Below are positions 18,275 through 26,351 of a stretch of 64,000 bases of DNA, one piece after another. The notes beneath the pieces are model-generated. The model was not told the origin of the DNA, ran no database searches, and saw only the letters and a list, made by a program, of their open reading frames with translations. Position numbers and translations under genes: made by a program. The stretch is from Roseovarius indicus (lineage in GTDB: Bacteria > Pseudomonadota > Alphaproteobacteria > Rhodobacterales > Rhodobacteraceae), in assembly GCF_008728195.1 (NCBI RefSeq), contig NZ_CP031598.1, positions 2,108,001 through 2,172,000 of the forward strand. The letters run 5' to 3'. How positions within the stretch are numbered: the first letter of the stretch is position 1; every line of letters starts with the position of its first letter.

Positions 18275-18378
18275 ACTCTTGGTGGTCCTGCCTGTCTGCT
18301 CTGGCGTCACTATAGGTGGCGAAGGGCCGGGGCAGAAGGGGGCAGTTGAGGACATTTCATGATGGAAGGATTTGCGGG

Positions 18379-18879
18379 ATGATCGACTGGATACTGGCGG
18401 GGATCGTGCTGGCGTTGGGCGGAGGTGGCGAGACGGACGTGGCAGGCGCAGGTATGACGGACCCGGCGGGGGAAAGCGCGGGCGGGGCGCCGACGGGTTT
18501 CGTCGCCGAGCCGCAGGTGCCGACGGGGCAGTTCACCACCGCCGTGGAGGTGAAGCCGATCCTGCAGGCGACGAAGGCGAACTGGGTCGCGGTGCGGGAA
18601 TACGAGGGGCGGGATCTGCTTTACGTGACGCATCTGCTGAGCTGGCGCTGCGGGATGCACCAGGTGCGGTATGCGATCAATGACGGGCCGATGCAGGTCT
18701 GGCCGCTGCCGCCCTGCCTAGAGGGGACGGCGCAGCCCAATGCCATTCGCGCCGAGGACGGGCTCCCCTATCAGGTGTTCGGGCTGGGCAATGTCGGAAG
18801 CGTGACGGTGGAGATTCTCTTTGACGACCTGACCACCGACAGCGCACGGTTCGAGCGGGCGCAGGTGCTGATGCCGTGA
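18379..18879 (+). CDS. hypothetical exported protein
   Basis: 166 aa from ATG 18379 with GGAAGGA upstream. A short hydrophobic N-terminus (WILAGIVLALGGGG) suggests export or membrane anchoring, followed by a Gly/Ala-rich linker and a compact domain of about 110 residues (VKPILQATKANWVAVREYEG, LLSWRCGMHQVRYAINDGP, LPPCLEG). Two cysteines, C88 and C106 by my estimate, could form a disulfide. I recognise no family. It is divergent from the glycosyltransferase. Confidence 0.6.
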   Translation: MIDWILAGIVLALGGGGETDVAGAGMTDPAGESAGGAPTGFVAEPQVPTGQFTTAVEVKPILQATKANWVAVREYEGRDLLYVTHLLSWRCGMHQVRYAINDGPMQVWPLPPCLEGTAQPNAIRAEDGLPYQVFGLGNVGSVTVEILFDDLTTDSARFERAQVLMP

Positions 18880-19014: not shown

Positions 19015-20091
19015 ATGGCCGATTTGGATGCGCAGGTGCGCGAAAGCCAGGAACAGGTGGAGCAGGCGCAGGCCCGGATTGCCGAGCTGACCAGCCGGAT
19101 CGAGACGGCACGCAGCAAGATCAAGGGCGGCGAGGATGCCACGCTCGACATCGAGAACGCCACGCTGGAAGAGGTGCACGCGCATACCGACACGATGAAT
19201 GCCAATATCGCCGAGCTGATCATGGGGCTCGACGATGTGACCGCCGCGTTTTCGCGCGATTTCGACGAGATGCGCAACAAGACCGGCTGGGAGAGCTTCG
19301 TGGGCGTCTTTTCCAAGGCCAAGGCCGACAGCATGCGGCAGGACCGGATTCGCACGGCCAATATCGACGACAAGCTGCAGGACCTGATTTCGAAGTCGGA
19401 CGTGATCGTGAACCTTCTGGAGGGCCAGCTGACCATGCTGGAAGAGCAGAAGGTGAAGGTGGAGACGAACCTTTCCGAAACGCTCGACGAGCGGGAGGCG
19501 ACGGTGGGCGAGCTGGAGACGCTGCGCGCGGATATCCAGGCGCTGGACCCGGAGATCATCCGGCTGGAGCAGAAGATCGCCAACGAGACGGATGCCGCGG
19601 CGCGGACGAAGCTCGAGACCGAACTGGCGGAGATGAACGCGAAGTACAACGAGAAGGTGCAGCAGGAGCAGGTGAAGCTGGCCAAGAGCCAGACGCTGGA
19701 GCGCTATATCGAGAAGGGCAAGACCTGGGTCGACAGTTTGCAGAACCAGGCGGCGACGCAGATGGTGCTGATCAACAAGCTGCGGACGGACACCAAGCAG
19801 CGGGTGGTGCTGTACGATGCCTTGTCGAAGTCGCTGAAGACCGCGCAGCAGCAGGACGTGGCGCACCGGATCAACGAGATCGGCGTGCAGACCGACCAGG
19901 AGGCGCAGAGCGCCATGGCCGGGATCGGGGCCGCGACCAACCAGCGGATGGCCGACATGATGGAGCAGCACGAGGAGCACATGGTGTTCGCCCGCGAGGT
20001 GCTGGAAGCGAAGGCCAAGGCGGATGAGCGGTTCGCGCGGCGTTTCGCGAAGATCATCGAGAAGCACGACAAGAACCTGTATGGGGCTTAA
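19015..20091 (+). CDS. coiled-coil protein, first gene of an uncharacterised AAA+ cluster
   Basis: 358 aa, almost entirely helical, with no signal peptide. Coiled-coil runs occupy residues 1-45, about 140-240 and 285-350, for example LEEQKVKVETNLSETLDERE and RLEQKIANETDAAARTKLE. The middle segment (AAFSRDFDEMRNKTGWESFVG) may be a globular spacer. The layout is loosely like TelA/KlaA or PspA-type proteins, but I cannot assign a family. The next gene starts one base after its stop. It likely forms the scaffold or oligomer of the cluster (inference). Confidence 0.75.
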   Translation: MADLDAQVRESQEQVEQAQARIAELTSRIETARSKIKGGEDATLDIENATLEEVHAHTDTMNANIAELIMGLDDVTAAFSRDFDEMRNKTGWESFVGVFSKAKADSMRQDRIRTANIDDKLQDLISKSDVIVNLLEGQLTMLEEQKVKVETNLSETLDEREATVGELETLRADIQALDPEIIRLEQKIANETDAAARTKLETELAEMNAKYNEKVQQEQVKLAKSQTLERYIEKGKTWVDSLQNQAATQMVLINKLRTDTKQRVVLYDALSKSLKTAQQQDVAHRINEIGVQTDQEAQSAMAGIGAATNQRMADMMEQHEEHMVFAREVLEAKAKADERFARRFAKIIEKHDKNLYGA

Positions 20092-20334
20092 GTGAGCGAA
20101 GGGAAGGCCATCAAGCTCGTGCTGCGGGTCGTGGTGCGTTACGGTTTGGTGGCCGGCTTCCTGGCCATCGCGATGTTGGCGGCCCGTCACCAGATCTACT
20201 GGCTTTGCATCGCGGGCGTGACCGGGGCGGGTGTCATGATCGCCTATATCATGGCCACCACAAGGGGCGGGGCGGTGACGCTCGACGCCTACAAGGATCA
20301 ACAGATTACGGTAGATCGGAACAAGATTGATTGA
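20092..20334 (+). CDS. small two-helix membrane protein
   Basis: 80 aa with a GTG start immediately after the TAA of the coiled-coil gene. Two hydrophobic helices (YGLVAGFLAIAMLAA and WLCIAGVTGAGVMIAYIMA) are joined by a short loop, and a polar C-terminus follows. Its last codons overlap the next gene by eight bases, so the three genes are probably translationally coupled. No family recognised. Confidence 0.7.
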   Translation: MSEGKAIKLVLRVVVRYGLVAGFLAIAMLAARHQIYWLCIAGVTGAGVMIAYIMATTRGGAVTLDAYKDQQITVDRNKID

Positions 20335-21472
20335 TGAACTGCCACAGAACGCGCGGAGCGCTACGGCCAACGACCATGTCGGGCTGACCGACCTTTACGC
20401 CTCGCGCCGGTATTTCGCCAAGTTCGAGCGGATCACCGGGTATCTGAACCGGGTGGCGGCGGTGATGCAGGCGGACAGCAAGTTCGACAAGGACGAGGTG
20501 GAGGTGCTGACCGCCTATGTGCAGGGCATCGCCTATACCTTCCGGGCGCTGAGCATGAAGTACCTGCTGGTGGGCCGCGATACGGGGCGGTTCTTCGGCT
20601 CGCTGGCGATGGATGTGCGCGAGAGCGGCTTTCCGGTCTTCAACGAGCTGATGGTGATGGCCAATGACGCCCACCAGGCTGGCCGGCACCTGCAGAACAT
20701 GCCCGATGCCGACACGCTGAAGCGGCAGATGGTCGAGCAGATCATTGGCGAGCGGACAATACCCACGAAGCTGCAATTCGCTTTGTCTCAAAGGCTTTAT
20801 TACGAAGAGCTCATGCGGGGGCACCTGTTCTGGGCGCAGAACGACCCCTCGCTTGTATGGCTCAGCGGCATGGGCGACCGGCGGCGCTACATGCTGCACT
20901 GGGCCGTCTACGACAGCCAGGTCAACCTGCCGACGATCTACCTGATGGAACTGGAGGATAGCGGGCGCACGCCGCTCGCCAAGGACGAGCGGCGCTGGCC
21001 TGAGGTGCAGGCGCATCTGATGGGGCAGGCGCTGGGCGGGCTGAAGCTTCTGACCATCGCGCGGGGCATCGACGAGGCGTTCGATGACATTCACCCCAAG
21101 CGACTGCGGCGGCTGCATGTGGGGCCGATGTATTCCCACGCCTATACCAGCCAGAGCGGGCCGATCCGGGATGTTCTGGCCGAGGCGCACGCGCCCGAGG
21201 GGCAGGACTGGGCGCTGGCCTGGACCGACGAGGTGCTGGAAAGCGAGCGGGTGCGCGAGGAGCGCGCAGGCTGGTTCGGGACGGTGGAGCGCGAGGTTTT
21301 CGCGCTCGACCCGTTCTCGGGCCGCGGAGTGGATACCGGGGCCACGCGGACGGAGCGGAGCATCATCCTGCCCGAGCGGCCCTACCAGGTGCTGGCCGAG
21401 AAAGCCCCGGCGGGGTTCGCGGCGGTGACGAAATACGTGGTGAGCCCCGGCGGCCGCGTTTTGCGATATTGA
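20327..21472 (+). CDS. conserved-looking protein of unknown function in AAA+ cluster
   Basis: 381 aa, apparently soluble. The start is probably TTG 20327, inside the end of the previous gene; no good ATG lies near. The sequence is helical (YASRRYFAKFERITGYLNRV, LTAYVQGIAYTFRALSMKYL), then mixed alpha/beta with a basic, aromatic stretch (DRRRYMLHWAVYDSQVNLPT). I recognise no catalytic motif. The tight spacing on both sides ties its function to the neighbours. Confidence 0.72.
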   Translation: MIDELPQNARSATANDHVGLTDLYASRRYFAKFERITGYLNRVAAVMQADSKFDKDEVEVLTAYVQGIAYTFRALSMKYLLVGRDTGRFFGSLAMDVRESGFPVFNELMVMANDAHQAGRHLQNMPDADTLKRQMVEQIIGERTIPTKLQFALSQRLYYEELMRGHLFWAQNDPSLVWLSGMGDRRRYMLHWAVYDSQVNLPTIYLMELEDSGRTPLAKDERRWPEVQAHLMGQALGGLKLLTIARGIDEAFDDIHPKRLRRLHVGPMYSHAYTSQSGPIRDVLAEAHAPEGQDWALAWTDEVLESERVREERAGWFGTVEREVFALDPFSGRGVDTGATRTERSIILPERPYQVLAEKAPAGFAAVTKYVVSPGGRVLRY

Positions 21473-21523
21473 GCGGTGGAATTTGAGTATTTTCGGAAAG
21501 ATGAAAGAACGGGAGGCAGCACG

Positions 21524-21949
21524 TTGAAACGGTTTGGTTTTCTGGTGATCGCGGCCGCCGTTCTGGTGGCGGGCTGCGCCAAGGTGAAGGAGCCGGCCGC
21601 GCCCTCGGCGCAGGTGGTGGCCGAGCGGCTGATGACGCGCAGCGAAAGCCCGGCGCGCGTGCAGCGCTGGCTTTTGTCGCGCGGGTTCCAGCAGATCGAG
21701 CGGACGGGATATGGCGGCGTCTGGCCGCGCACGGGGCCGTGCTTCCAGACAGTCAAGGGGCTGCTCTACCGCGACCGGACGGTGACGCGGGTGTGTTTCG
21801 CGGCCGACCAGTACCCAGTCGTGCTGTTGCGCGAGCGGCAGGGATATTACTGGACGGAGGTCTATCCGAACGATCTGTCCTACAACCTCTACGGCCCCAG
21901 TGGCCTTGGGGCGATTTCCGATGAAACGGTGGAGATATTGAAGCGATGA
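21524..21949 (+). CDS. lipoprotein in AAA+ cluster
   Basis: 141-aa precursor. I place the start at TTG 21524, which gives LKRFGFLVIAAAVLVAGC, a signal peptide with lipobox V-A-G-C; GGGAGG lies eight bases upstream. A GTG at 21476 would add an implausible polar leader. The mature part (about 120 aa) includes RVQRWLLSRGFQQIERTGYG and ERQGYYWTEVYPNDLSYNLY with two further cysteines. Its stop overlaps the AAA+ gene start by four bases. It gives the system a periplasmic or outer-membrane face. Confidence 0.72.
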   Translation: MKRFGFLVIAAAVLVAGCAKVKEPAAPSAQVVAERLMTRSESPARVQRWLLSRGFQQIERTGYGGVWPRTGPCFQTVKGLLYRDRTVTRVCFAADQYPVVLLRERQGYYWTEVYPNDLSYNLYGPSGLGAISDETVEILKR

Positions 21950-23883
21950 GCCTGACGGCCGACACGATGGAGCTTCGCGAGGAGGAGATCGCGAAACATT
22001 ACGAGGCGGCCCAGGCCATGCTGGACGGGTTCGACCACACGCCGCGCGTGGGAAAGCCCCGGGAGACCGAGCAGGAGGAGCGCTCGGCCGGGCTTGGCAC
22101 GCGGCGGCGGTTCCGGACAACGACGCCGGGGCTGGTGACCCGCTCGACGGCGCGGGCCGAGGGGGTGCACCTGCTGCAGACGATCGCGGCGGCAGACGGG
22201 GATGACCCGCTCACGAGCCCGCTGCAGGCGACGGTGATGCACGGGCTGCGCCGGGCGCTGGCGATTGCGCTGGCGGTGGGCGAGGCGTTTGCCGAGGCGA
22301 CGGGGCTGGCCGAGCTGCGGCGGGCGAACCTGGCGGGGTCGCTGGGGGCTGACCGGAAGACGGAGTTCACCGAGCTGATGGGCGCCGAGGCGCTGGCGGT
22401 CAGCCACGTTTTCGCCAATGCGACGGCGTTCCTTTTGGGCCCGCATGGTTCGGAAGTGTCGGTCGAGGTGGGCGAGGTCGAGGAGCTTCTGACCGACAAT
22501 GCGCAGCTGGCGCTGCATGGGCTGTTGTGGGAGCTCGATCAGGATATCGCGGCGATGGCGGGCGACGATGCGCGGCTGGTGGCCGTCGTATCGGCGTTTG
22601 CCGAGCAGGTGATGGAGAAGGTCGCGATCCGGGCGCAGAATACCGGCAGGCTCGGGGCCTTTACCGGGGCGAGCTGGCGGGTGGAGGCGGATGACTTCAC
22701 CATTCGCGGCTTCGAGGCGGCGGCGAAGGGCAAGTCGACCACGCTGACCATGGAGTTCAAGCAGCCGCACGAGGTGGTGGGCAACCATATCGCCAAGTAC
22801 CAGGCGCTGAAGCTGGCGAAGATGATCATGGCCTATGATTTCGACCGGCGGCTGAACCCGTTCGTTGAACTGGGCGGGTTCATCTTCACCTTCATGGGCG
22901 ACGGCAAGCCGGGCACGGGGAAGACCACGCTGATCCGGATGATGGCGGGGCTGATGAACGGGTATTGCGAGGTGGCGGGCTATCCGTTCCGGTACATGAA
23001 CCTCTCCACGGAAAGCATTGATTCCTATCAGGGAAAGAGTGCTCAGAACGCCAAGAGTTTCATCAACACGGTGCTGGATCCGGGGGTGATCGGGTTCGGG
23101 ACGGTCGACGATATCGATCAGCTTGCGGGCAAGCGGGGCGACCGGCAGTCGAGCGCCGGGCAACTGGAGATCACCGCCGTTCTGATGGAGAGCTTTTCGG
23201 GGGCGAATACGGTGGTGCGGGGGAACTGCACCTTCGGGATGTTCTCGAACTACCCGGAGAACGTGGATGACGCATTGCGGCAGCGGGCGGGGGCGCGGTT
23301 CCTGGTCGACGGGCCGCAGACGCGGGAGGATTACATCGACATCCTGCACCTGTTGATGGGGAAGAACCATGACATCCCGCTCGGGAGACATGAACTCTAT
23401 GCTGCGCAGGAGATCAAGAAGGCGGTGGCGGCGTCGTTCGAAAGCCACAGCCGGCCGCATGAGGATGGGCTGATAAAGGTCTATGATCGTGTGGAAAAAG
23501 ACCTCGGCAAGCTGGATACGATTGCCAAGCTGGGCACCTATCTGAAGGGCATCCAGGAAGCGGACGAGCGGTTCACCGGGCGGGCGATCAAGAACATCAC
23601 CGACGCGGTGAAGGTCCGGGCGATGGATTTCGAGTTGCCGGATGAGTGGATGGAAGAGCCGGAGCTGTTCCTCTTCAAACCCTACGAGGAGAAGCTGGGC
23701 ATGATCGAGGAACTGCGCCAGCCGATCACGGTGGAGATGGTGATCCAGGAAATCAACCGCTACGCGGATTCGGAATTCCGCTATGCCGACAAGTCTGACG
23801 AGGTGGCGATCGAGAATATGGTTCGCGAGTTCGGGCGTACGGAGGAGGCCAAGCGGCGGTACTTGGAGGGGAAGGATGGGTGA
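21946..23883 (+). CDS. AAA+ ATPase of uncharacterised cluster
   Basis: 645 aa. The N-terminal 270 residues are a helical domain with no family I know. The AAA+ module follows: Walker A GDGKPGTGKT at 318-327, Walker-B-like VDDID at 387-391, then a second-region-of-homology-like segment (sensor-1 N435 in FSNYPENVDDALRQRAGARF) with candidate arginine fingers R445, R447 and R451. The acid at the end of Walker B is Asp instead of the usual DE. The C-terminal part is helical with a winged or lid-like region. Probably a classical-type AAA+ remodelling ATPase that acts on cluster partners. An ATGA overlap couples it to the lipoprotein gene. Confidence 0.82.
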   Translation: MSLTADTMELREEEIAKHYEAAQAMLDGFDHTPRVGKPRETEQEERSAGLGTRRRFRTTTPGLVTRSTARAEGVHLLQTIAAADGDDPLTSPLQATVMHGLRRALAIALAVGEAFAEATGLAELRRANLAGSLGADRKTEFTELMGAEALAVSHVFANATAFLLGPHGSEVSVEVGEVEELLTDNAQLALHGLLWELDQDIAAMAGDDARLVAVVSAFAEQVMEKVAIRAQNTGRLGAFTGASWRVEADDFTIRGFEAAAKGKSTTLTMEFKQPHEVVGNHIAKYQALKLAKMIMAYDFDRRLNPFVELGGFIFTFMGDGKPGTGKTTLIRMMAGLMNGYCEVAGYPFRYMNLSTESIDSYQGKSAQNAKSFINTVLDPGVIGFGTVDDIDQLAGKRGDRQSSAGQLEITAVLMESFSGANTVVRGNCTFGMFSNYPENVDDALRQRAGARFLVDGPQTREDYIDILHLLMGKNHDIPLGRHELYAAQEIKKAVAASFESHSRPHEDGLIKVYDRVEKDLGKLDTIAKLGTYLKGIQEADERFTGRAIKNITDAVKVRAMDFELPDEWMEEPELFLFKPYEEKLGMIEELRQPITVEMVIQEINRYADSEFRYADKSDEVAIENMVREFGRTEEAKRRYLEGKDG

Positions 23884-23894
23884 GAGTTTGCCAT

Positions 23895-23955
23895 GTAGGG
23901 TGGGTGCAACCCACCTTGCGTCGAGACGGGGGATGGTGGGTTGCACCCACCCTAC
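23895..23955. repeat. perfect 21-bp inverted repeat (REP/MITE-like hairpin) inside the operon
   Basis: The left arm 23895-23915 (GTAGGGTGGGTGCAACCCAC plus C) and the right arm 23935-23955 are exact reverse complements, with a 19-bp loop. Each arm itself contains a smaller GGTGGGT/ACCCACC palindrome. It fills nearly all of the 78-bp gap between the AAA+ stop and the next ATG and ends six bases before that ATG. Sequences of this GTAGGGTGGGTT type are, from memory, widespread repetitive elements in many bacteria. Confidence 0.85.
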
Positions 23956-23961
23956 GCCCTC

Positions 23962-25311
23962 ATGAAACGCCTCATCACATCCGGGCTGATGTTCGGCAAC
24001 CTGATCCACGTGGACAGCCCCGCGCTGGTGGAAAGGTATAACCGGGCGCTGAAGCACCTGACGGGGAAGCAGACGGGCCTTACCGATTTCTACATCGACA
24101 TTTCCGGGTATTCGCCCGAGGTGGGGGACGAGCTGGATGATCCGCTTTACCTGAACCATGCGGGGGTGAACCGGCAGTTCATTCTGCTCACCACGGCGCA
24201 GAAGACTGCGCCGCTGCTGGATGCGAAGTTTTCGACCTCGCGGGGGATTTTGAGGCAGTTCATCGAGGAGAACGAGCCCGCGCTTTTCGCGCTGACCGCG
24301 CGGGATGCGGTGGCGGGGGAGTTGGTGAACTCCGTCTTCGATATGTCTGATCCGAAACGGCTTTTCGATATCCGGCGGATCGTGATCGAGGCGGATACGA
24401 CGAATGGGCGCATCCGGCGGGCGGCGGAGCTGGACCAGAAGGTGAGCAGGTTTCTCAACGAGGAGGATGCGTGGTTCGACGACGTGCTGATCGCCGAGAT
24501 GATCGGGCTGGCGGGCGAGACCGGGGATATCGTGCGCAACCCGGTGTCGCTGAAGAAGATGGAGTTCGAGCAGCGCGATTTCTGGACGGCGCATTTCGGC
24601 GGGCTGTACCTGTTCCAGGATCTGGAACTGCCCGGCGTGATTGCCTCGGCCGGCAAGGAGGGCTTGGGCGATTTGCCGATCGAGTATGTCTTCGGGCTGG
24701 AGGAGCGGAACCGGATCGCCAATTTCCTCGACCTGAACGGATTGGTGGAACCCATTGTAAAGGCGCGAGGAATCGATGCGAGTGCCGTGCTTCGGCAGAA
24801 GATGGATTTCATGATGGTCGACGCGCTGGCCGATGCGGGCGTCGACCTTGCCGGGCGGTCGCGGACGGATATGCGGCGGCTGGCCCGCACCCATGCCAGC
24901 CAGTTGCCGGAGGAGTTTCACGCGCTGGCCGCGTTGTTGAACTGGGCCGAGAGCGGGGGCAAGTGGCCCACCATCGCCAGCGACAGCCCGGCCTATTTCT
25001 ATACGCTCAGGGCCTCGGGTCACAAGGATGCGGACCTGGTGAACATGCTGCTGGCGGAGCTGGCGCCCAAGGATTTCCGGCAGCTTTTCATCTGTCACAA
25101 GGAGCTGTTCTACCGCCGCTATGCGGGGTGGAGCGACACCAAGAAGGCCTATGTGGTCGAGTATCTGCTGAACGAATACCAGGTGGACAAGGTGGGCGCG
25201 CGCAAGGCACTGTTTGGCCGGGACGCGCCCATGGAAGAAGAGATCAAACCGGAGCCGGACATGGACCAGCTGATCGAGCTGGTCGGTCCGTGGGGCCCGG
25301 TAAGGAGGTAA
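23962..25311 (+). CDS. unknown protein in AAA+ cluster, downstream of hairpin
   Basis: 449 aa from ATG 23962. Soluble, mixed helix, rich in acidic residues (EFEQRDFWTAHFGGLYLFQD, EERNRIANFLDLNGLVEP, FICHKELFYRRYAGWSDTKK). No catalytic motif recognised. The start codon has no visible Shine-Dalgarno because the inverted repeat occupies that position; a TTG at 23941 lies within the repeat itself. Translation may therefore depend on coupling or on melting of the hairpin. It is followed by AGGAGG and the next gene. Confidence 0.75.
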   Translation: MKRLITSGLMFGNLIHVDSPALVERYNRALKHLTGKQTGLTDFYIDISGYSPEVGDELDDPLYLNHAGVNRQFILLTTAQKTAPLLDAKFSTSRGILRQFIEENEPALFALTARDAVAGELVNSVFDMSDPKRLFDIRRIVIEADTTNGRIRRAAELDQKVSRFLNEEDAWFDDVLIAEMIGLAGETGDIVRNPVSLKKMEFEQRDFWTAHFGGLYLFQDLELPGVIASAGKEGLGDLPIEYVFGLEERNRIANFLDLNGLVEPIVKARGIDASAVLRQKMDFMMVDALADAGVDLAGRSRTDMRRLARTHASQLPEEFHALAALLNWAESGGKWPTIASDSPAYFYTLRASGHKDADLVNMLLAELAPKDFRQLFICHKELFYRRYAGWSDTKKAYVVEYLLNEYQVDKVGARKALFGRDAPMEEEIKPEPDMDQLIELVGPWGPVRR

Positions 25312-25314
25312 GGC

Positions 25315-25581
25315 ATGGCGGCACTGGCCAAGCTTGTGGTGATTGGCTTCATCGTTCTGACGATTATCTATGTGTGCCTGTCGCTCTATTCCCGCTCTGT
25401 GCGCAAGGGGAAGCTGGAGGAGTGGTGGGAAGAGGAAGGGCGGCCGGGCGACCGGGAGGCCTATATCGAGGCCGGGCTGAAGGATTACGAGGGCTCGCTC
25501 AGGCGGAAGCTTATCTGGGGCGTCTATATCGTGCCGGTCGCGGTGATCGGCGCCGTCATTTATTTTACCAATTTCCACTGA
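25315..25581 (+). CDS. small two-helix membrane protein in AAA+ cluster
   Basis: 88 aa. TM1 (LAKLVVIGFIVLTIIYVCLSLY) and TM2 (LIWGVYIVPVAVIGAVIYF) flank an acidic loop of about 35 residues (EEWWEEEGRPGDREAYIEAG). A strong ribosome binding site AAGGAGG precedes ATG 25315. It resembles the family of small proteins often placed next to DUF1523 genes in Rhodobacteraceae, though I cannot confirm that here. It is probably a membrane partner of the following protein. Confidence 0.72.
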   Translation: MAALAKLVVIGFIVLTIIYVCLSLYSRSVRKGKLEEWWEEEGRPGDREAYIEAGLKDYEGSLRRKLIWGVYIVPVAVIGAVIYFTNFH

Positions 25582-25591
25582 GGCGCGGGCG

Positions 25592-26248
25592 ATGGTGTAT
25601 TTGAAATGGGCATTCTGGATCGTGGTCTGGGTGCTGATCGCGGCCTTCTTTCATTACACGTTGCCGCAACATGACATTGCGCGGATCACGGATACCTATG
25701 AAAAGCGGATCGATTTCGGGGAAAACTCGATCTTCTGGGCGAGCCCGGATGTGGGGAACGATACCGGTGCGGTGAACCGCGACGTGTTCTTCATCCAGGC
25801 GGTTCGCACGAATGGCCGGGTGATGGTGTATCGGAACGAGGATACCGGCTGGGGCTGGCCGCCCTATTTCAAGTTCGACACCGCGAACCTTCAGGCCGAG
25901 GCGGCGGACCTCAAATCGACCGGGGAGACGCCGAAATGGGTGTCGATCAAGCATTACGGCTGGCGCAACGAGTTCATGTCGATCTATCCCAACGCGGTGG
26001 AGGTGCGCGCCGTGGCCGGGCCGGATGTTGGTACTGGAATACCGTGGTTCAACATCCTGATTATTGGGTGTTTTCTGGTGGTTGTTCTGGGGGTCTGGGC
26101 GCTGTGGCGGCGGTTTCGCGCCCGGCGGATCGACCCGGTTTTCGACGATATCGGCGAGAGCTGGGATGCGGCGGGTGACCGGGTGGATCACCATCGCAGC
26201 CGGTTCAAGCGCTGGCGGGACAGCTGGAAGCCCAAGCACAAACGCTGA
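25592..26248 (+). CDS. DUF1523-like membrane protein
   Basis: 218 aa. TM1 near the start (LKWAFWIVVWVLIAAFFHY) is followed by a conserved-looking extracytoplasmic domain (LPQHDIARITDTYEKRIDFG, RNEDTGWGWPPYFKFDTANL). TM2 (WFNILIIGCFLVVVLGVWAL) leads to a short basic cytoplasmic tail. I recognise the N-terminal pattern as DUF1523, a family of unknown function. It is the last gene of the cluster, before the convergent tRNA gene. Confidence 0.78.
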   Translation: MVYLKWAFWIVVWVLIAAFFHYTLPQHDIARITDTYEKRIDFGENSIFWASPDVGNDTGAVNRDVFFIQAVRTNGRVMVYRNEDTGWGWPPYFKFDTANLQAEAADLKSTGETPKWVSIKHYGWRNEFMSIYPNAVEVRAVAGPDVGTGIPWFNILIIGCFLVVVLGVWALWRRFRARRIDPVFDDIGESWDAAGDRVDHHRSRFKRWRDSWKPKHKR

Positions 26249-26267: not shown

Positions 26268-26351
26268 TGGTGGGCGACCTAGGAATCGAACCTAGCGTGC
26301 GTCTCCGCGAGGGAGTTACAGTCCCCTGCCACACCTTGCGGCCTGTCGCCC
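26268..26351 (-). tRNA. tRNA-Tyr (GTA)
   Basis: 84 nt including an encoded CCA (26268-26270). Acceptor stem GGGCGAC/GTCGCCC, discriminator A, T arm CTAGG-TTCGATT-CCTAG, anticodon loop CTGTAAC with GTA at 26319-26317. A long variable arm (class II) is typical of bacterial tRNA-Tyr. The anticodon stem closes with one G-U pair. rlmB lies divergently beside it. Confidence 0.95.

Follow-up and report, generated by a model that had tools for sequence, protein, structure and literature searches.

BREX (bacteriophage exclusion) and other multi-gene defence operons have a conserved core with varying accessory genes. Variable anti-phage genes are also described at defence hotspots in P2-like phages and P4 satellites, in the available part of PMC9122126. 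Here we describe an operon of Roseovarius indicus at 19015..26248 (plus strand) of a 64,000-nucleotide window (assembly GCF_008728195.1, contig NZ_CP031598.1, positions 2,108,001 to 2,172,000 of the forward strand; coordinates below are those of the window unless a locus is named), whose eight genes are called A to H in order. Its core consists of A, C, E and F, and G and H are added in most Rhodobacterales copies. Exchangeable genes, most of them oriented with the operon, occupy three of its junctions, A-C, C-E and, most prominently, E-F; the F-G and G-H junctions were free of them in all of 94 loci each. This is a real, largely uncharacterised cluster of marine bacteria, and the behaviour of these slots is the surprising part.

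Exchangeable genes at three junctions of the operon

A total of 111 loci were compared: 20 first relatives (18 from the same family and two from outside it), 11 more genome regions, and 80 named loci, the best 80 of 549 confirmed. L124 and L139 are duplicates, which leaves 110 distinct loci, and 104 of these hold A, C, E and F. The duplicate is still counted in the tallies of slot-ORF (open reading frame) strand, helices and lipoboxes, E-F base composition, neighbour signatures and gene-end copies. Gaps of more than 250 base pairs (bp) were found in 89/107 distinct loci at E-F, 45/106 at A-C and 12/109 at C-E, and in 0/94 at both F-G and G-H; the F-G gap did not exceed 52 bp in 95 loci. With the limit set at 150 bp, 90 of the 104 distinct loci had a filled E-F, 63 a filled A-C and 13 a filled C-E slot. 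All slots were at or below this limit, i.e. empty, in 11 of the 104, showing that the core can stand alone. As an outside control we used nine conserved same-strand junctions in the flanks; six had no gap above 250 bp, and in the other three the proportion of such gaps was 0.09, 0.22 and 0.60. Slot ORFs were called with a codon-composition filter which lost AT-rich ORFs, and the calling for E-F was repeated without it. Of the called E-F ORFs with at least 150 amino acids (aa), 35/36 lay on the operon strand.

What lies between E and F changes from one species to the next even where the cores are nearly the same. Among 14 Ruegeria loci with core identities of 92-97%, an E-F cargo homologue (ORFs of at least 60 aa, E<=1e-5) was common to 10 of 91 pairs. 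The GC (guanine plus cytosine) content was 0.541 in the E-F gap versus 0.614 in gene E, and the gap was the lower of the two in 77/93 cases. Surroundings of the operon vary between genera, with 81 distinct nearest-neighbour signatures in 106 loci, the window included.

Partial copies of the end of an adjoining core gene were present in 5/189 gaps. The clearest is in L169, where the last 151 bases of E are copied between two cargo genes (positions 351-501 of the E-F gap); this copy is 94.7% identical to another Ruegeria locus versus 90.0% to its own E. Corresponding values for the best other locus versus the own gene were 96.3 vs 88.9% (L158), 92.5 vs 88.7% (L159) and 91.9 vs 88.6% (L050, over 37 and 35 bases), and for L132 the own gene was absent from the matches listed. 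These few and mostly short copies suggest that DNA arriving from the corresponding locus in a different strain may recombine at gene ends.

Same-strand E-F ORFs had a predicted helix in 74/116 cases, alongside larger soluble proteins. Families found above the Pfam cut-off were an Mrr restriction endonuclease (L179), the AbiJ N-terminal domain AbiJ_NTD4 (L055, with a 55% identical protein in L193), DUF2971 (L134), DUF433 adjoining a PIN_10 gene (L147), DUF3825 (L052), a thioredoxin-like protein (L135) and, in Sinorhizobium meliloti, DUF559, to which a protein in L117 is 55% identical within a cluster of five rhizobial-type loci. Below the cut-off we found an HNH match (L208) and a histidine-kinase-type ATPase (L146, 87% identical in L186). 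PADLOC identified PDC-S31 (L134), type IV restriction (L179 and L208) and DrmA (L146). An R-x5-H motif, which we take to be typical of HEPN RNases, is common to five related proteins with lengths near 260 aa and is the basis of their HEPN label; for one of the five, scanned by itself (L205), PADLOC gave no match. In S. meliloti an ISRm16 transposase accompanies the DUF559 gene in the slot (L255:10106-11851).

A three-helix membrane family recurs in the E-F slot of 16 loci, including the closest relative of the window, L129. By blast, nine further E-F ORFs of 117-315 aa cluster together (L143, L149, L154, L168, L173, L182, L185, L192 and L199). Most of them consist of a membrane segment and a coiled coil, and those in L138, L159 and L177 appear similar by eye; a single member that was scanned (L182) matched no family beyond a weak permease match. 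The slot of the window itself (23884..23961, plus strand) contains a palindromic repeat only, a perfect 21-bp inverted repeat with a predicted fold of -53.1 kcal/mol (z -7.3). Its arm has 25 matches in the genome at no more than two mismatches, both window arms counted. The palindrome occupies the place of the three-helix membrane gene in L129.

The other two slots hold proteins of different kinds. A-C ORFs called in the relatives had a predicted membrane helix in 60/65 cases, and most of them were mutually dissimilar. A lipobox-like motif was found in 6/11 called C-E ORFs. The C-E slot of L113 contains a Fic-like gene, named from its motif alone. In the window, B (20092..20334, plus strand; an 80-aa two-helix membrane protein) and D (21524..21949, plus strand; a 141-aa putative lipoprotein) are slot genes that fit the A-C and C-E patterns, respectively, and are not part of the core. 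Neither was matched in any of the 20 first relatives (tblastn, E<=0.01), and in 120 loci homologues below E 1e-5 were found in L129 and L130 only for B, and in L129, L130 and L180 only for D.

Conservation and spread of the core

The first-pass annotation had read the eight genes as one system. All eight plus-strand ORFs are present, mostly overlapping or close together, but the system shrinks to the four core genes, G and H being a Rhodobacterales addition and B and D slot genes. The expectation of a conserved and co-inherited set was borne out. Gene order in the 110 distinct loci was ACEFGH in 91, ACEF in 10, ACEFH in three and incomplete in six, and it was never permuted; three of the ACEF loci (L130, L163 and L172) are cut by contig ends, and three loci without A start near a contig edge. 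In the first relatives A, C, E, F and H kept one order and strand in 20/20, and G did so in 19/20. The upstream ORF at 18316-18879 and the downstream spoU-like gene were matched in 0/20 of these relatives. A is the most conserved member, with 68-83% identity in 19 of the 20 aligned relatives and 43% in the remaining one.

Of 120 genomes drawn from the same family, 54 carried DUF6638 (the family of F), 51 carried A and 50 carried E, each smaller set being nested in the larger one, so that A and E were present in 50/54 genomes carrying F. In the four that have F but lack E, F sits at a contig edge in two, while the other two genomes are 76-77% complete. One of the latter, at 76% (L128, G451), gave partial and broken matches to A and F, and E was not found in it. 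That the genes might instead be scattered independently in related genomes was mostly not observed, with L136 and L201, taken up below, as exceptions away from contig edges.

The core operon, with its slots, is vertically inherited, and the core follows species. In a FastTree core tree with 67 rows, six genera each require a single change when set against the remaining named groups: Ruegeria (14), Roseovarius (6), Shimia (4), Marivita (4), Tateyamaria (4) and Sulfitobacter (3). Some of the genus groups enclose rows that were not grouped, e.g. Roseobacter and Roseicyclus within Roseovarius. The window, on a 5.4-Mb (megabase) contig of a 6.17-Mb genome, has a core that groups with Roseovarius. 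A complete A-C-E-F-G-H set was found in another class of the phylum (L109, G541); its core groups with Leisingera, which points to a recent transfer.

A class-wide draw gave 7/385 genomes over the DUF6638 cut-off, of which five belong to the family of R. indicus. A profile of A found 31/398 phylum-wide genomes at E<=0.01; two of these matches were borderline, and three genomes had just a divergent A. Seven loci from a second alphaproteobacterial family, which the neighbouring genes suggest to be Rhizobiaceae, contain A-C-E-F, and G and H were not found in them. All four core genes are present in the S. meliloti record, where tblastn identified A and E and a comparison of proteins C and F. Identity to the Sinorhizobium protein was 30% over 283 residues for C (1e-39) and 32% for F, and that of E was 51-54% in rhizobia and 39% in Vibrio. 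The Vibrio core has the same order at 27-40% identity on records of 0.88-0.94 Mb; A and E were found in four such records, three regions were read, and C and F were compared in one, where the proteins in the same place were 27% (C, E=2e-41) and 28% (F) identical. A was 38.5-42% identical in Vibrio and Shinella. In three Vibrio loci (L253, L254 and L256) A-C-E-F is followed by mfd, and the records are typed as non-mobilizable plasmids.

Three genomes of the second family carry a stand-alone, divergent A of 23-25% identity, with C, E and F missing (L118:8713-11146, L119:8982-11547 and L120:8922-11219). It lies between thymidine-kinase-like and DUF2333-type genes, DUF2333 being matched on L118 only, and the region is flanked by thymidine-kinase-like and formate-tetrahydrofolate-ligase-like genes. 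S. meliloti holds the whole A-C-E-F set at this place. Because the divergent A stands alone in these genomes, A may keep a role that is independent of E.

Gene products in the window

All genes of the window operon are on the plus strand. A (19015..20091, 358 aa) is a predicted coiled coil and abuts B, which overlaps C (20327..21472, 381 aa) by 8 bp; 51 bp separate C from D, and D overlaps E (21946..23883, 645 aa) by 4 bp. The E-F gap of 78 bp is followed by F (23962..25311, 449 aa), then after 3 bp by G (25315..25581, 88 aa) and after another 10 bp by H (25592..26248, 218 aa). The starts of D and F lie inside slightly longer listed ORFs, and the start of F at 23962 is consistent with the alignment. 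By a hydropathy count, B, G and H each have two predicted helices, and A, C, E and F have none. A tRNA-Tyr (tyrosine transfer RNA) gene lies at 26268-26351 on the opposite strand, about 20 bp past the last gene.

The first-pass annotation had listed a coiled-coil protein, two small two-helix membrane proteins, two large and soluble unknowns, a lipoprotein, an AAA+ ATPase and a DUF1523 protein, with no known family except DUF1523 and no nuclease or phage-defence domain. Its parts list largely stands for A, C, E, F, G and H; for D as a lipoprotein we found only a weak match of the signal region below the cut-off. Its statement on families overlooked that F is a full-length DUF6638 member (PF20343, 1.1e-224, 746.7 bits vs a cut-off of 27). 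E belongs to AAA (PF00004, 6e-13, 49.8 bits vs 21.2) and H to DUF1523 (2.6e-69, 232.5 bits vs 23); A, B, C, D and G matched no Pfam family over its cut-off. A lack of nuclease and defence domains holds for the window and fails for relatives, some of which carry such genes between E and F. NCBIfam, PADLOC and PHROGs added generic AAA and coiled-coil resemblances to the window proteins, as well as a match to the signal region of D.

E has an N-terminal part of about 300 residues without an assigned family. Residues G320, P322-T327, D388, D389, D391, R445, Q446 and R447 were invariant in 15 aligned members from several families; they include segments which we take to be the Walker A (GxPGTGKT) and arginine-rich (RQR) motifs, with the roles these names imply. 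Since nucleotide-binding residues are kept in divergent members, E is likely an active ATPase. AlphaFold2 predicted for C (predicted local distance difference test, pLDDT, 83.5; predicted template modelling score, pTM, 0.83) a helical N-terminal half and a beta domain, and residues 182-345 may weakly resemble T-fold (tunnelling-fold) proteins in structure. The predicted F (pLDDT 83.5, pTM 0.78) is of mixed alpha/beta type and its fold matched none that was recognised.

Interpretation and relation to known systems

We propose that the core works as a self-sufficient AAA+ machine and that exchangeable genes, in part anti-phage ones, use its operon as a landing site; we give this reading about an even chance of being right. 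The E ring, partnered by F, would act on A and C, and where G and H are present, i.e. in Rhodobacterales, the complex would dock at the inner membrane through them. Docking of this kind would not be universal, as G and H were not found in the seven rhizobial-type loci. Foreign genes would enter by recombination between conserved gene ends, such as those of E (3') and F (5'), and would be expressed together with the operon; the E-F slot would thereby serve accessory genes as a landing site, several of them anti-phage or toxin-antitoxin genes by type. In this model E would be coupled to A, C, F, G or H, and where G and H are present an envelope machine, as the first-pass annotation suggested, would be plausible.

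Several observations weigh against this proposal. The locus set over-represents close relatives, because its named part comprises the best 80 of 549 confirmed loci. One of the flank control junctions also often has large gaps (0.60 of loci), and 26/142 called E-F ORFs lie on the opposite strand. L136 has A-C-E followed by 8 kb (kilobases) of unrelated genes, and L201 has E alone among unrelated genes, neither with a contig edge; absence was judged within 8 kb, the extent searched in both genomes. The gene-end comparison is weak for short copies, since the best match among many loci often beats a single own gene. Much of the E-F cargo is without a family or is a small membrane protein, and one is thioredoxin-like. 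PADLOC at 1e-4 matched 5/39 E-F proteins versus 1/35 flanking controls (one-sided p ~0.13, calculated by hand), an enrichment that is suggestive and not significant, so this comparison does not show enrichment for defence. The 39 proteins comprise every E-F ORF with 190 aa or more in the unfiltered calling, four of them (L143, L175, L191 and L197) maybe spurious frames as judged by eye, and the controls are one random flanking ORF per locus, which 35 of the 39 loci provided; the HEPN label was not tallied in these controls.

The core might itself be a conflict system, anti-phage or stress-related, in which a complex senses infection or envelope damage and drives slot-encoded effectors such as HEPN RNases, nucleases and small membrane proteins. 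Restriction-, PIN- and AbiJ-type genes in the E-F slot would fit this, as would the predicted helices shared by nearly all of the otherwise mostly dissimilar A-C ORFs, the near all-or-nothing distribution of A, E and F, the transfer of L109 to another class with a Leisingera-like core, and the occurrence on large plasmid-class replicons. It is made unlikely, if still worth serious attention, by the 11/104 distinct loci that have no slot gene by length, and by a core that, in contrast to most defence systems, tracks genera and is highly conserved. The best PADLOC matches of the core proteins were to LmuB (8.7e-6, a coiled coil) and TRIP13 (1.2e-6, an AAA domain), with nothing beyond such generic resemblance. 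A modular immune platform, in which a membrane-bound AAA+/coiled-coil/DUF6638 machine would sense phage or envelope damage and drive effectors swapped through dedicated slots by gene-end recombination, we regard as a little more doubtful.

Alternatively, the slots may be passive, small genes landing where no gene is broken and being tolerated by the E-F spacing with no functional link to the core. Such indifference would agree with the functionally mixed cargo, the repeated palindrome that is all the window holds between E and F, the 11/104 empty loci and the E-F ORFs on the opposite strand. We nevertheless consider it improbable, given that insertions are absent from F-G and G-H (0/94 each), that A-C, C-E and E-F each hold different kinds of proteins, and that all but one of the longer E-F ORFs share the operon strand. 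It is very improbable that A is a remote TelA-family protein and the cluster a variant of tellurite/stress gene clusters: A is similar to TelA in length and helical layout by eye, and in hhalign forward TelA scored above reversed TelA in 3/4 comparisons (25.9 vs 17.6, 27.0 vs 18.9 and 30.0 vs 21.1), but hhalign probabilities were 0.5-7.9% (one TelA set behind this range contained a few badly cut rows), the matched region shifted with the TelA set, the fourth comparison favoured the reversed set (21.5 vs 20.2), the best of 60 block-shuffled controls for the profile of this fourth comparison reached 28.1, PF05816 was absent from the 12 families at E<=10 for the window A, and true TelA occurs in 36/41 family genomes, many of them without the cluster.

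Integration at tRNA genes was rejected, tRNA-Tyr being near only three Roseovarius loci (L129, L131 and L133) of 105 and within 500 bp in one. A viral origin was likewise rejected: E had no match in phages and none confirmed in viral contigs, and H had none in phages. In the PHROGs search, H matched a phage family at 2.1e-6.

Returning to the proposed AAA+ machine with its landing site, if it is correct the A-C-E-F operon would be a marker for new phage-defence genes, the E-F content of each genome being a candidate, and gene cassettes would be exchanged inside an otherwise conserved operon, apparently via the ends of neighbouring genes.

A literature search for DUF6638 found no paper in the collection covered. 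DUF1523 appears only as a label in gene tables in the available parts of PMC9339283 and PMC11373665, and the titles and abstract openings on DUF6638, DUF1523, DUF2333 and defence hotspots or slots, among the matches listed, do not describe the cluster. F is a full-length member of DUF6638, as which two Vibrio proteins in the same place are also annotated; unlike the family in our literature search, without a described function or partners, it is tied here to A, C and E. E shares the AAA domain, Walker A and the arginine-rich segment with its family, and has a generic likeness to i-AAA, Fidgetin, proteasomal and TRIP13 domains; it differs in its N-terminal part without a family, and no protease- or HORMA-type partner was matched in the locus. 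BREX-type operons likewise have a conserved core with varying extra genes, but here the core genes match PADLOC only generically and the core occurs without cargo. The P2 and P4 hotspots, as far as the available part of that report describes them, likewise carry variable anti-phage genes; unlike them, the present operon has an E unmatched in the phage collection, and its slot lies between genes of a conserved bacterial operon.

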